Shown: one piece after another, positions 4,822-26,029 of the stretch
Numbering within the stretch: the stretch's first letter is position 1
Layout: each line of letters opens with the position of its first letter
Source: Mycobacterium sp.
Lineage (GTDB): Bacteria; Actinomycetota; Actinomycetes; Mycobacteriales; Mycobacteriaceae
NCBI GenBank assembly: GCA_003987775.1
Contig: RXJD01000023.1
Span: forward strand, 124,001-188,000
DNA: 64,000 nt
Reading direction: 5' to 3'
Made by a program: the position numbers and the translations under genes
The notes under the pieces: generated by a model
Seen by the model: the letters and a program-made list of their open reading frames with translations, nothing else
Told to the model about the DNA's origin: nothing
Databases searched by the model: none

Positions 4822-6701
4822 TCTCCGGTGCGGGTGAAGGTTTGATCGAAGGCCGCGTTGACCCCGCACAGGCCGGTCTGCTCCTGGCGCCCGTGCCCGG
4901 TGAGTCGCTCGATGGGATTCTGCGGCGGCTGTGGCAGCGGAAACTCCGCGATGACACTGAAATGCAGTGTGCCTCCCTTCGGGCACGGGTAGTCGGCGTT
5001 CGCGGTGAGAGCCCAGGTGCCGTTCTGGTAGACCAGTGGTTGGTCGCCTGCCGCCCCGTGGAAGTAGCTCATGCACCGTTCGCCGGTGCGCAGACAGTCG
5101 GTGACGACGGCGGAGTCCGCGGGCTGAGTGGGGATGGGCGCGGAATAGGTTCGCAGCACCTGGTAGCGGCCGTGCAACGCTTCGGCCGGTGACGCCACCC
5201 GCGGTGTGACGGTGGCCGGGTCGGCCACCGTGTCGACGTCGAGATCGCCTGTGCGGGTGAGTGTTACCGGCCGCTTGTCCCGGCAATTGGTGACGCTGGT
5301 GCGTGTCATCTCGCCGGAGAGCGTTCCGTCGGGGCCCAGTTGCAGGGAGAACGCCAGCCAGAACTCGGATTTGGTCGAAAGGCACTCATCGGTGATCAGC
5401 GCCACCGCCAGCCACCGGCCGCCGACCTCGTCGAACACCATCGTCTTGGCCAAATCATTGGGCCGACCCAGAGATTCGGCCGTCGCCACGCATTCGGCGC
5501 CCCTGCACGCCGAGCGAAGGCCGTAGCTGACAGTGGCCGGCCCCGCACCGTGGCCGTTGCCGTCGAGATCGGTGGCGGCGCCGAAATCCGCCTTGTAGCG
5601 GCCATTCAACGGGCCAGGAGTCAGCGGCGCGGCCGAGGTCGTGGTCGGCGTGCTCGCCGGCACGGTCGACGTGGTGGCGGAAGTAGTGTGCGTGGAGGCG
5701 ACGGCGGCCGGCCTGTGCATGAGCTTCACGCCGGTGAAAACACCGCCACCGATAAGCAGCACGACGGCGACCAGCGCGGCGATCAGAGCACGGGGTGATT
5801 TCCGCGGCGGCCGTTCGATCGGGGCGGTGACGAGGTGGTCCGGTGCATTGATCCGGGGGGCAGCCTCGAAGTGCCTGCGCAATTGGGCGGCGAACTCACT
5901 GCAGGTGGCGAAGCGGTCGGACGGTTGTTTGGCCATCGCGCGCATGAACACCGGATCCAGCTTGCTCAGCTCGTCTTTGCACGATCCCGGTGACGGCGGT
6001 GGAGCGTACAGGTGGTGGGTGATGACGACCGCGGCATTGGCGTCCGGGTAGGGCGGCGCACCGGTCAGCAGATGAAAGGCTGTGCACGCCAGGGCATATT
6101 GGTCCGCTCGACCGTCGACCGGATCACCCCTGAGTTGTTCGGGCGCGGCATAGGCGACAGTGCCTACTGCCACATTGGTCTCGGTCAGCCCCGCCGAATC
6201 GTCGATGCGTCGCGCGACGCCGAAGTCGGCCAGATACACCCTCCGGTTCTGCCCGTCGGCATCGGCCAGCAGGATGTTCGCCGGTTTGACGTCGCGGTGC
6301 AGCAAGCCGAGTTCGTGCGCGTAGTCCAGCGCGGCTGCGACCGCGTCGATGATGGTCAGCACCTCATCGGCGGGCATGCCCGAGGGGTACTGGTCCTTCA
6401 GTAACCGGGAGACATCGGTGCCGGCCACGTAATCCATAGATATCCAGAACTGGCCGTCGAACTCGCCCCGGTCCTGAACCCCGACGATGTGTGGATGGGA
6501 CAAGCCCGCGGCCAGGTCCGCCTCGCGGGTGAATCGCGCCCGATACTCCGCATCGTTGGCGAACTCCGCGGGGAGAACTTTGAGAGCATCCTCGCGCGGC
6601 AGCCGAGGATGTGTGGCCAGATACACCGTGCCCATGCCGCCCGCACCCAGTACGCGCAGGATCGTGTATCCGGCGAACACCTGGCCGACATCCAGGGACA
6701 C
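4818..6701 (-). CDS. PknF-like transmembrane Ser/Thr protein kinase, second of a tandem pair
   Basis: A 627-residue receptor kinase. The catalytic domain, about residues 10-280, has the GAGGMGTVY glycine loop, the invariant lysine in ALKV (residue 41), [10 protein letters not shown] at 135-144, DFG at 159-161 and AAPEQL, and appears active. A proline-rich juxtamembrane stretch leads to one membrane helix at about 305-327. The extracytoplasmic part contains two related cysteine-bearing modules, each ending in TRTGD. The start is GTG, only 4 nt after the stop of the upstream kinase, so the two are surely co-transcribed. The kinase domain resembles PknF of M. tuberculosis; the sensor part does not look like PASTA or PknH_C. 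The ligand is unknown. Confidence 0.9.
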
Positions 6702-6705
6702 TGTG

Positions 6706-8601
6706 CTAATCGCCTGTCCGAGTGAACGTGTCGTCGAAATCTACGTCCATCGAGCACACTCCGGTCTGCGCCCAGTGCCCGCGGCCGGGCAGCGTCGGCA
6801 GCGGATCCGCCGGCGGTTGCGGCAGCGGGAAAGTGGCGCTGATCCGCAGCGTCGTCGGACTCCCGTCCGGACACTTGCCGCTGTTCACCTCTTCCCAGGT
6901 CCAGCCGCCGCCTGCGAAAATCAGTGGAACATCGCCCGATCCGGTGTGGAAGTAGCTCATGCACCGATCACCGGTACGCAGGCAATTGGTGACGACTGCC
7001 GAATCGCCCTTCTGCTGAGGACCTTGGCCCGTCAACGTAAGGGTCTGCTGATAGTGGCCGCGAAAAGCCTCGGCCATTGACGGCACCCGCGGCGGCAAAG
7101 TCGCCGGGTCGGGGAGTCCGCCAGGTGGATCGCCGGTGCGGGTGAAGGTCACGGTACGCCGCTCTTGGCAATTGTTCCGGGCAGTGCGCGTTTGATCGCC
7201 GACCAGAGTTCCGTCGGGACGCGCCTCCAGCGTGAAGACCTCCCAGATCTCGACGGTATTGGCCTTGCAGGGCTGCGTCGACAGGACCACCGCCACCCAG
7301 CTGCTGCCCAGCTGGTCGAACACCATGGTCGAGGCGAAGGCTCTTTCACCTTTCAGGCGCGAAGCCGTTGCCACGCAGCCGGCGCCTCCACACATCGAGC
7401 GCACACCGTAGGTGCCCGTGGTGGGTTGCGCAGTCGGAACTGATTCGCCATCCAGGAGAGTGGCCGGGCCGAAATCGGCGCGGTATGTCCCGGTGAACGG
7501 GCCTTGTGCAGCCGCAGACGTTCCCTGGGGCACCGCCGTCGACGATCCCGGCGGTGCGGCGGTGTGCTTACGGCTGCTGGTGAACCGGCTGAGGGCAAAG
7601 ACGCTGCCGACAAGCAGCAGCGCGACGGCCACCAGGGCGCCGATCAACACGGCAGGCCGCCGAACCCAGCTTTTCGACTCCGGCTCGTGCGCTGCAAGCA
7701 TGGGAATTGACGGCTGAGTTTGCCTGGCGTGCAGGTTGATTGGGGTGTCGTAGTCCTGCGTTGCAAGGTGCTTGCTCAGTTCCAGAGCGAAATCGCTGCA
7801 GCTGCTGTAACGGCCGTTCGGGTCCTTGGCCATGGCGATGGCGAAGACCGGGTCCAGTGAGGACAACTCGGGCCGGCGTAAGGCGATGGACGGCGGGGGT
7901 GCGCTGATGTGTTGGGTGATCACCACCGTGGGGTTGGTGTCGGCGAAGGGCGGAGCGCCGGTCAACAGGTGAAAGGCTGTGCAGGCCAACGCATATTGAT
8001 CGGTTCGGCCGTCGACCGGATCGCCCTTGAGTTGCTCGGGTGCCGCGTAGGCCACCGTGCCGACCGCCACGTTGGTGGCCGTCAGGCCGGAAGCGTCGTC
8101 GATGAGGCGGGCGATACCGAAGTCGGCGAGGTAGATCCGGCGACCCTGGACGTTGTCGGGTTCGGTGAGCAGGATGTTGGCCGGTTTGACGTCGCGGTGC
8201 AGCAGGCCGCGGTGATGGGCGTAGTCCAGTGCGGATGCGACGGCGGAGATGATGGCGATCACCTCGTCGACGGGTAGACCGCTCTGATAGCGCTCGTGGA
8301 GCAGATGTGAGGCATCGGTGCCCGGCACGTAATCCATCGAGATCCACAACTGGCCGTCATTTTCGCCGCGGTCGTAGATCCGCACGATGTGCGGATGCGA
8401 CAGGCCCGCGGCCACGTCGGCTTCGCGGGCGAAGCGCATTCGGTACTCGGGATCATCGGTGTACTCGGCGGGCAGCACTTTCAGTGCGTCCTCGCGCGGC
8501 AGGCGCGGGTGCGTCGCCAGGTAGACCCTGCCCATCCCGCCGGCGCCCAGCACTCGCAGGATGGTGTATCCGGCGAATACCTGGCCAACCTCTAAAGACA
8601 T
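6706..8601 (-). CDS. PknF-like transmembrane Ser/Thr protein kinase, first of a tandem pair
   Basis: A 631-residue paralogue of the downstream kinase with the same plan: kinase domain with [26 protein letters not shown] and AAPEQL; a membrane helix near residue 320; then a sensor region with two modules ending in TRTGD. I chose ATG 8601, giving [20 protein letters not shown], because it aligns with the start of the downstream paralogue; a longer in-frame extension to 8760 would run into the divergent DUF35 gene. The two genes form an operon that looks like a recent duplication with divergence in the linker and sensor. Likely role: signalling from the cell envelope. Confidence 0.9.
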
Positions 8602-24400: not shown

Positions 24401-24442
24401 CGAAACCTGTTGTGGCTCAGTGGCTATCGCTGAACCCGTGGT

Positions 24443-24529
24443 TTACTCCGCGATCTCGGTGGCGTTGAAGCTGATGGTGCACAACACATACGACGCTTCG
24501 CGCTCTGAGAACAACTCTTCAAGAGACAT
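24443..24529 (-). CDS. Candidate 28-residue peptide behind a repressible promoter
   Basis: A short ORF (ATG 24529 to TAA 24443) begins MSLEELFSEREA and ends TISFNATEIAE; it has one cysteine near residue 17, an acidic N-terminal half and no membrane segment. An AAGGGG box precedes the ATG by 8 nt. A sigma-A-like promoter and a perfect inverted-repeat operator lie immediately upstream on the same strand. The layout resembles a regulated small-peptide gene (signal, toxin, or modified-peptide precursor), but no family is recognised and no maturation enzyme is adjacent. It could also be a short regulatory leader. Confidence 0.55.
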   Translation of the reverse strand: MSLEELFSEREASYVLCTISFNATEIAE

Positions 24530-24548
24530 CGGCGAACCCCTTCTGGTG

Positions 24549-24574
24549 ATATTGTCAACCATGATTGACAATAT
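24549..24574. promoter_or_regulatory. Operator: perfect 10-bp inverted repeat
   Basis: ATATTGTCAA, six bases, TTGACAATAT is a perfect palindrome. It overlaps the -10 element and presumed start site of the promoter for the 28-codon ORF, as expected for a repressor site of the TetR, GntR or MarR type. Confidence 0.75.
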
Positions 24575-24596
24575 GCCGAGGGGGAACCGCCGTCAA
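24568..24596 (-). promoter_or_regulatory. Sigma-A-like promoter of the 28-codon ORF
   Basis: On the minus strand TTGACG, a 17-bp spacer and TATTGT give near-consensus -35 and -10 elements. Transcription would start about 32 nt before the ATG, inside the operator. Confidence 0.65.
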
Positions 24597-24777
24597 GACA
24601 GGGGGCGCTGCCAAAGCGGAAGTGCCGAGGTATGTCGGACCTTGGTGCCGGCCGGCCGTCGGAATACTTCAGCGGCACGAATCACGTAGTGCTGCAACGC
24701 AAGTGGTCAACCGCCGACCGGACGTGGTTCCGGCGGATCGCCGGGCCGGGCAGGTCGAACGGCGATGTAAGACCGCC

Positions 24778-25233
24778 TCAGCCCTTCTCGGCTGCTGCCT
24801 TAATTCGTGCCAGCGAGGCGTTCATGCCCTCGACCAATTCCCGCTCGAAGTTCTCGGTCCCGCCGAGCAACGCGTTCACCGTCAGGTTAGACACCGCGCT
24901 GGTGCCGTTTTCGGCATGGCGGCTCTCCGTCACGCGGGTGCCCTCACCATGCGGCTCGAGTTCGTAGCTCCAGATGGTGCGGTTGGTGTCCACCCGGAAC
25001 GCGAGCTTCTTCTCCGGAATGACTTCGACGACGGTCGAGGTCGTCGGCCAGAACAGCCGGTTGCGCCGGTTGAGGTTCAGCGTGCGGGTGCCGTTGCGCA
25101 GCGGGCCGAATTGCCGCATCCACCGGCACTGGGGGCTCCACTGCGGCATGCGGCGAAAATCAGAGATCAGCTCCCACACTTTCGAGGGGGGCGCTCCGAT
25201 GTCGATCGAAGCCTGCAGTAGCGGAGCGGCCAT
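24778..25233 (-). CDS. SRPBCC (polyketide cyclase/dehydrase-like) family protein
   Basis: A 151-residue START/Bet v 1-like helix-grip protein. Family features are the N-terminal ASIDIGAPPSKVWELISDF, then WSPQCRWMRQFGPL and a C-terminal long helix, ENFERELVEGMNASLARIKAA. Such proteins bind hydrophobic ligands; the ligand here is unknown. ATG 25233 is preceded by a strong AAGGAGGACGC box. It follows the DUF2530 gene by 14 nt on the same strand. Confidence 0.85.
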   Translation of the reverse strand: MAAPLLQASIDIGAPPSKVWELISDFRRMPQWSPQCRWMRQFGPLRNGTRTLNLNRRNRLFWPTTSTVVEVIPEKKLAFRVDTNRTIWSYELEPHGEGTRVTESRHAENGTSAVSNLTVNALLGGTENFERELVEGMNASLARIKAAAEKG

Positions 25234-25597: not shown

Positions 25598-26029
25598 GTG
25601 CCCGACAGCGATGCGCGGTTGGCCGCAGACTTGTCGTTGGCGGTTATGCGGCTGGCTCGGCAACTCCGGTTCCGGAACGCTTCCTCACCGGTATCGCTGA
25701 CTCAGCTCTCGGCGCTGACGACACTGGCCAACGAGGGGGCGATGACCCCCGGCGCGCTTGCCATCAGGGAACGGGTCCGGCCGCCATCGATGACGCGGGT
25801 GATCGCATCCCTGGCCGACGAGGGCCTCGTCGATCGCGCCCCGCATCCGGTGGACGGCCGGCAGGTGCTGGTGTCGGTCTCCGAATCCGGTGCGGAACTG
25901 GTCAGAGCGGCGCGTCAGGCCCGTCAGGAGTGGCTGGCCGAGCGGCTCGCGACGCTGGACGATGCCCAACGCGACGTTTTGCGCAGTGCGGCCGACCTGA
26001 TCTCGGCCCTGGTCGACGAAAGCCCGTGA
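25598..26029 (+). CDS. MarR-family transcriptional regulator (Rv0880-like)
   Basis: A 143-residue winged-helix regulator. The recognition region is [20 protein letters not shown] followed by [17 protein letters not shown], and the wing is [13 protein letters not shown]. It likely binds DNA as a dimer in response to a small phenolic or lipid ligand. The GTG start appears leaderless. Its stop overlaps the start of the methyltransferase gene as GTGA, so the two are coupled. Confidence 0.92.

Follow-up and report, generated by a model that had tools for sequence, protein, structure and literature searches.

TfuA-YcaO enzyme pairs are known from thioamidated RiPPs of Actinobacteria, such as the thiovarsolins and the thioviridamide group (Santos-Aberturas et al. 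2019, PMC6511847). As far as the consulted sections of that work go, it also covers mycobacterial YcaO-TfuA pairs, whose precursors were sought within 8 kb of the enzyme and whose network usually has a type III PKS and a sulfotransferase nearby. Scattered precursors are described, in the consulted part of PMC10783134, for the prochlorosins and synechococsins, lanthipeptides made by ProcM-like enzymes. A global survey of TfuA clusters reports six of them in M. szulgai and as many in M. angelicum; it looks at enzyme-containing clusters, and its consulted sections do not mention unlinked precursors (PMC8120280). Six TfuA matches each were found in two of the genomes compared here (G128, G231). 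Precursors unlinked to the enzymes were not found described for mycobacterial TfuA-YcaO in the literature searched, outside of which most subscription papers fell.

In this study a stretch of 64,000 nucleotides from Mycobacterium sp. (the window) was analyzed around a small ORF. With a probability of about 0.8, this ORF encodes an unlinked RiPP precursor that would be modified in trans by TfuA-YcaO and repressed by a MarR. The system shares with the TfuA-YcaO RiPPs of PMC6511847, in the sections consulted, adjacent YcaO and TfuA genes and short, often unannotated precursor ORFs alongside them; the window peptide is homologous to such enzyme-adjacent precursors and itself lies outside the cluster. 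Unlike the scope of that survey, which extends to 8 kb, most precursors here are unlinked to the enzyme. The likeness to its mycobacterial network is one to the consulted description and not to the sequences, and neither a type III PKS nor a sulfotransferase was noticed when the translated enzyme loci were read by eye. Like the prochlorosins as depicted in the consulted part of PMC10783134, the system appears to combine one promiscuous enzyme with many scattered precursors of variable core, some with tailoring genes nearby. Scattered precursors, a constant leader and a variable core are all present, a likeness of layout only, as the system differs in using YcaO-TfuA, in a leader of about 14 residues and in at least two shared regulatory palindromes.

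All elements that a preliminary description had listed for the site without giving a strand, namely a 28-codon ORF with one cysteine codon, a Shine-Dalgarno-like AAGGGG, a near-consensus promoter and a perfect 10-bp inverted repeat over the -10 hexamer and the predicted start, are present on the minus strand (Table 1). The translation of the ORF is MSLEELFSEREASYVLCTISFNATEIAE. It is acidic, shows no obvious membrane-spanning stretch when read from the sequence, and has no match in Pfam or NCBIfam. No Rfam model matches the peptide site; the sole Rfam match of the window is a c-di-AMP riboswitch elsewhere (RF00379, 17002-17175, minus strand, 64 bits). An antisense ORF of 89 codons with a GTG start (24420-24689, plus strand) crosses the peptide gene and the operator.

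Table 1. Features of the peptide site (window positions) and the candidate modifying enzymes (positions in locus L042, contig C109).
Feature	Position	Strand	Remarks
Putative precursor-peptide ORF	24443..24529	minus	28 aa, ATG 24529, TAA 24445-24443
Conserved part, predicted leader, residues 1-14	24488..24529	minus	family M-[SA]-H-E-x-L-F-x-E-x-E-x-x-Y; window member has L at residue 3
Variable part, residues 15-28	24446..24487	minus	probable core and acidic C-terminus; boundary inferred
Shine-Dalgarno-like AAGGGG	24537..24542	minus	7 nt before ATG; 4-nt match
-10 hexamer TATTGT	24568..24573	minus	within palindrome
-35 hexamer TTGACG	24591..24596	minus	17 nt from -10
Putative 26-bp MarR-type operator, ATATTGTCAA-N6-TTGACAATAT	24549..24574		over -10 and predicted start site
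YcaO	L042:5718-6992 (C109)	minus	PF02624, E 1.1e-58
TfuA	L042:4276-5718 (C109)	minus	PF07812, E 7.9e-43

The promoter (TTGACG-N17-TATTGT, 24596-24568) agrees with the consensus at 9 of 12 positions and is the sole promoter-like site found between 23000 and 26000. Since shuffled sequences yield 0.3 +/- 0.5 such sites, its score alone does not exceed chance; support for the predicted promoter comes from other genomes, where it is conserved together with the operator. The palindrome stands out by itself: with up to three mismatches it has one match in the window and none in 100 shuffles. The -10 hexamer occupies the outer part of one arm and the predicted start lies near the centre. A search for the palindrome elsewhere, as had been proposed, located TATTGTCAA-N6-TTGACAATA with up to three mismatches at four places genome-wide, against one place for the reversed control.

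When the 28-residue peptide was searched against 396 congeneric genomes, 26 matched at E<=10 (all E-values of peptide searches are per genome). Besides the own genome, G218 and G135 stand out with 72% identity and E-values of 4.3e-7 and 4.8e-6. Because these copies occupy the same gene slot as the window ORF, the tiny ORF is, judged by its conservation, beyond chance. The operator is kept in G218 (TATTGTCAACCATGGTTGACAATA) and in G135 (TTAATGTCAACCGTGGTTGACATTAA), where the changes are symmetric and preserve the palindrome. Both genomes also keep the promoter hexamers (TTGACC/G, N18, TATTGT and TAATGT, respectively), and with a third genome, G072, whose -10 is TACTGT, the set comprises -35 hexamers of TTGACC or TTGACG at N17-18. 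The slot flanked by the SRPBCC gene and DUF3027 was inspected in the best 30 of 130 loci, and for G218 in a separate locus. The operator is accompanied by the frame in three genomes (the own genome, G218 and G135), and all 28 other slots read lack both, which indicates that they come and go together. Loss of the frame in relatives that retain the promoter had been named as the finding that would speak against a peptide gene; the frame is present in each of the three genomes in which the operator is kept here, and the proposed operator-covered promoter for a peptide gene is thereby supported. In a DNA search of the intergenic stretch against 41 genomes other than G218 and G135, only matches of 25-38 bp were obtained outside the own genome.

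Peptide length is equal in the three orthologues, which all retain E4, L6, F7, E9, E11 and Y14, and the C-terminal part diverges. Residue 3 is leucine in the window member, tyrosine in G218 and histidine in G135. Between the own genome and G218, 16 nucleotides differ, six in the first 63 and ten in the last 21, amounting to one synonymous and nine non-synonymous codon changes. Conserved codons with synonymous changes had been suggested as a check: the homologues were found, and the three orthologues, taken alone, show no synonymous excess. Codons 11-21 are identical at the nucleotide level between the own genome and G218, as could be expected of an untranslated small RNA in which the ORF is incidental. 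This reading is very hard to maintain, as about a hundred relatives keep the residues, the start codon, the Shine-Dalgarno match and the length, and synonymous codons vary among them at conserved residues (E4 is GAG in 38 and GAA in 67; L6 uses five codons).

These relatives were collected with two profiles, A1, built from seven peptides including the window peptide, and A2, a refined version of 23 rows. A1 matched 37 of the 396 genomes at E<=1 and 25 at E<=0.011, a cut that was chosen after the match list had been viewed. With A2 at E<=0.02, between one and 21 matches per genome were obtained in 25 of the 26 genomes with TfuA. The own genome harbors eight members, on contigs C67 (the window), C102, C104, C37, C109 (two) and C5 (two); seven of these are among the A2 matches listed, and the second C5 copy is seen with A1 and in the extracted set. 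Against A2 the window peptide scores 47.2 bits, and the C109 pair reaches 43.9 and 41.9 bits, all three being rows of that profile; the pair is not part of A1, which gave E-values of 0.0016 for one of its peptides and 0.11 for the other. The loci fetched gave 113 matches, of which two (15 and 175 aa) were dropped and 111 of 21-59 aa were kept; these loci are a subset of the listed matches. Almost all of those extracted (109/111) are 25-31 aa long. Among 106 distinct members of 24-31 aa, the consensus of the N-terminal part is M-[SA]-H-E-x-L-F-x-E-x-E-x-x-Y, with M1, L6 and F7 invariant (106/106) and E4, E11, E9, H3 and Y14 present in 100, 98, 95, 94 and 87 members, respectively. The remainder is variable and usually ends acidic: the last residue is E or D in 82 of the 106, and a phenylalanine is located eight residues from the end in 71. 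A GG, as in the double-glycine leader cleavage site of prochlorosin-type lanthipeptides, was seen by eye in a few peptides (e.g. those of L191, L170) and not as a general feature. Shine-Dalgarno-like matches of at least 5 nt precede 98 of 111 members compared to 1329 of 12078 random ATGs; the window ORF, with its 4-nt match, has one of the weaker sites of the family. An order-wide search of 249 genomes from 68 genera gave matches at E<=0.01 in four, all congeneric, and the family is found here in one genus only. The ORF, which had been called an orphan, has about a hundred relatives and, by this sequence evidence, is a real gene of a large peptide family in some mycobacteria.

The family is tied to YcaO-TfuA by homology and by co-occurrence. 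In the own genome, which contains two YcaO and one TfuA, the YcaO and TfuA genes on C109 are adjacent, and two family peptides lie directly upstream on the same strand. TfuA exceeds the Pfam cut-off in 26 of 396 genomes, including all three orthologue genomes. Peptide matches at E<=0.011 occur in 25 of these 26 and in none of the 370 others, two of which (G041 and G270) have TfuA matches under the cut-off; the corresponding Fisher p of 1e-38 treats species as independent although they are related. The exception, G372, has TfuA and no family member at E<=1. Twelve TfuA-negative genomes match A1 at E 0.018-1 (best G095, 0.018), which was taken as chance. Copies of YcaO with a family peptide directly upstream, and with no TfuA seen directly after, were observed at L190, L192, L159:1600-2853 and L169:1709-2995. 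A modified-peptide precursor, one of the readings considered in the preliminary description, is the most likely one.

The C109 YcaO is matched best by the general YcaO-domain model TIGR00702 (364.7 bits). Among function-specific models, the McrA-thioamidation model (149.7 bits) scores above the azoline-forming SagD model (65.2 bits), both under their cut-offs, and the C109 TfuA matches a single model, McrA-thioamidation TfuA, at 176 bits, likewise under its cut-off. Among PDB entries, the YcaO profile matches MJ1094 (6pe3), the archaeal thioamidating YcaO, best by sequence. For TfuA, a match to 6xp8 covers roughly the first 213 residues. The C-terminal part of about 270 residues (about 214-481) has no PDB match and is conserved in 13 homologues. 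No leader-binding domain was identified, and the C-terminal part of TfuA is a possible candidate for this role. A plasmid search with YcaO returned 162 records, all below 60% identity.

From these data the following course is proposed. The conserved N-terminus of the peptide would serve as a recognition leader, which the C109 YcaO-TfuA pair would bind in trans. Thioamides would then replace at least one backbone amide in the variable part, and the leader would be removed. As the -10 and the predicted start lie under a MarR-type operator, a MarR repressor, for which the MarR encoded on C65 is the best candidate, may keep the peptide gene off until a ligand releases it. The likeliest use of the product would be that of a small signalling or antagonistic thioamide peptide made upon the MarR ligand. 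Several observations count against a RiPP precursor: the window ORF is unlinked to any modifying enzyme, no tailoring gene adjoins it, its residue 3 is leucine, its Shine-Dalgarno site is weak, the three orthologues show no synonymous excess, G372 has no member, 12 TfuA-negative genomes match A1 weakly, no leader-binding domain was identified, and the operator motif extends beyond the family.

Distance from the enzymes is common in this family. In ten genomes with chromosome-level contigs, 33 of the 46 peptides among the matches listed are located more than 100 kb from TfuA and 11 within 8 kb. The window orthologue of G218 lies 2.68 Mb from the sole TfuA match of that genome. In the own genome, six of the eight members, including that of the window, are on contigs other than that of TfuA; the enzymes are on C109, and the window lies on C67, with about 110 kb of sequence to the closer end of that contig. 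The unlinked position would also suit a regulatory or signalling peptide that is translated and stays unmodified, having an ancestor in common with the YcaO-TfuA precursors and no longer taking part in the modification pathway, as would the leucine and tyrosine in place of H3 in the window member and G218, and an operator that differs from the palindrome of many other members. Such a departure is unlikely, since G135 keeps H3, all three genomes have TfuA, and conservation of E4, L6, F7, E9, E11 and Y14 next to a diverging C-terminal part is the pattern of a recognition leader.

Tailoring genes accompany many of the unlinked peptides. Where the fetched locus shows neither YcaO nor TfuA, 32 of 69 peptides have a P450, class I methyltransferase or FAD monooxygenase gene within 400 bp; orthologues are counted apart in this set, whose size is an upper bound because some loci were short or broke off with their contig. 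The methyltransferase family occurs in 12 of 14 TfuA-positive genomes and in 2 of 134 others, in one of these with internal stops. The P450 was dropped as a co-occurring family, as the query matches 131 of 148 genomes via a widespread relative; its nine matches at >=70% identity, a threshold chosen after viewing the list, are in eight genomes, all with TfuA. A clustering of sites was left unused since it merged too much via common neighbour families. No tailoring gene is found beside the window peptide. On balance, we favor a model for some mycobacteria in which one TfuA-YcaO hub acts on as many as about 20 unlinked precursors that have individual switches (the MarR operator here, the shared GTCCCC palindrome described below for many others) and in many cases a tailoring enzyme of their own, giving different thioamide peptides per condition. 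If so, most precursors of the system escape gene-cluster mining, which looks next to the enzyme, and the system would be a thioamide counterpart of the prochlorosins in a medically interesting genus, with precursors under separate regulators. It would then offer a concrete test in which the enzymes are constant, the leaders many, and the cores and tailoring genes different.

The upstream neighbour of the window peptide, an SRPBCC gene (24778-25233), was rejected as a dedicated partner: it is a core gene, present in 130 of 148 genomes at E<=1e-40, and occurs without the peptide in other genomes. Its product weakly matches the Rv0910-type toxin model (23.6 bits, cut-off 100), which together with the operator-covered promoter of a small ORF and the antisense ORF across the site could suggest a small toxin or toxin-antitoxin element under a repressor. 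This is highly improbable for a peptide family linked to YcaO-TfuA; there is no Rfam match at the site, and the acidic peptide is without an obvious membrane-spanning stretch.

The MarR gene at 25598 had been named as the closest candidate regulator. It belongs to the Rv0880 family (NF052438, E 1.3e-72) and was dropped, as its promoter has no operator copy, the single copy of the window being elsewhere, and the palindrome is carried by the MarR gene on C65 and seven homologues. These genes (C65, L009:4466-4975; G006, G218, G135, G072, G234, G176 and G231) are 57-88% identical and hold two motif copies at their promoters, spaced by 47-49 bp in seven of them and by 63 bp in the eighth. They account for 8 of 29 loci, all of which were chosen for holding the motif. 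Because the genes of this clade carry the same motif at their own promoters, the C65 MarR clade is the best candidate and likely the repressor at the window operator.

Within 300 bp upstream of the family members, TGTCAA-N6-TTGACA (<=2 mismatches) was found in 6 of 111 against a shuffled mean of 0.46; four cases look convincing, namely the window, G218, G135 and a G072 member. A second palindrome, GTCCCC-N5/6-GGGGAC (<=1 mismatch; about TGTCCCCCGATCGGGGGACA), precedes 43 of 111 members within 250 bp, where control stretches taken from those loci predict 0.6, and is absent upstream of the window member. It is positioned 88-181 bp before the start codon (e.g. L143, L141, L142, L042) and is found ahead of YcaO operons as well. 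Exact copies in 637 kb of peptide loci number 20, 18 of them in the 300-bp upstream stretches. In the own genome it is found at the C109 YcaO operon, C104, C37 and one C5 member. As many members share this different palindrome, the family precursors probably become active in sets.

The operator motif is not confined to the peptide family and is found before other genes too. Two copies are located at the start of a SnoaL_4 gene (L011 about 5004 and 5050, G000:C79). This arrangement would fit an origin of the window ORF as the leftover 5' part of some longer gene, e.g. of SnoaL type, a negligible prospect in view of its missing Pfam and NCBIfam matches, the equal length in three genomes and the narrow length range of the family. 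A scan beside five operator loci revealed no further family peptides. A MarR-type operator was observed about 150 bp before a methyltransferase of the above family (L246 about 3001, G072:C81), with no precursor peptide between them by scan. A near-copy of the window operator lies upstream of the second YcaO cluster of the own genome (L010 about 5001-7938, G000:C28), in which a gene resembling acyl-CoA dehydrogenases is accompanied by a small ORF of another kind (MEQRILWKRP...).
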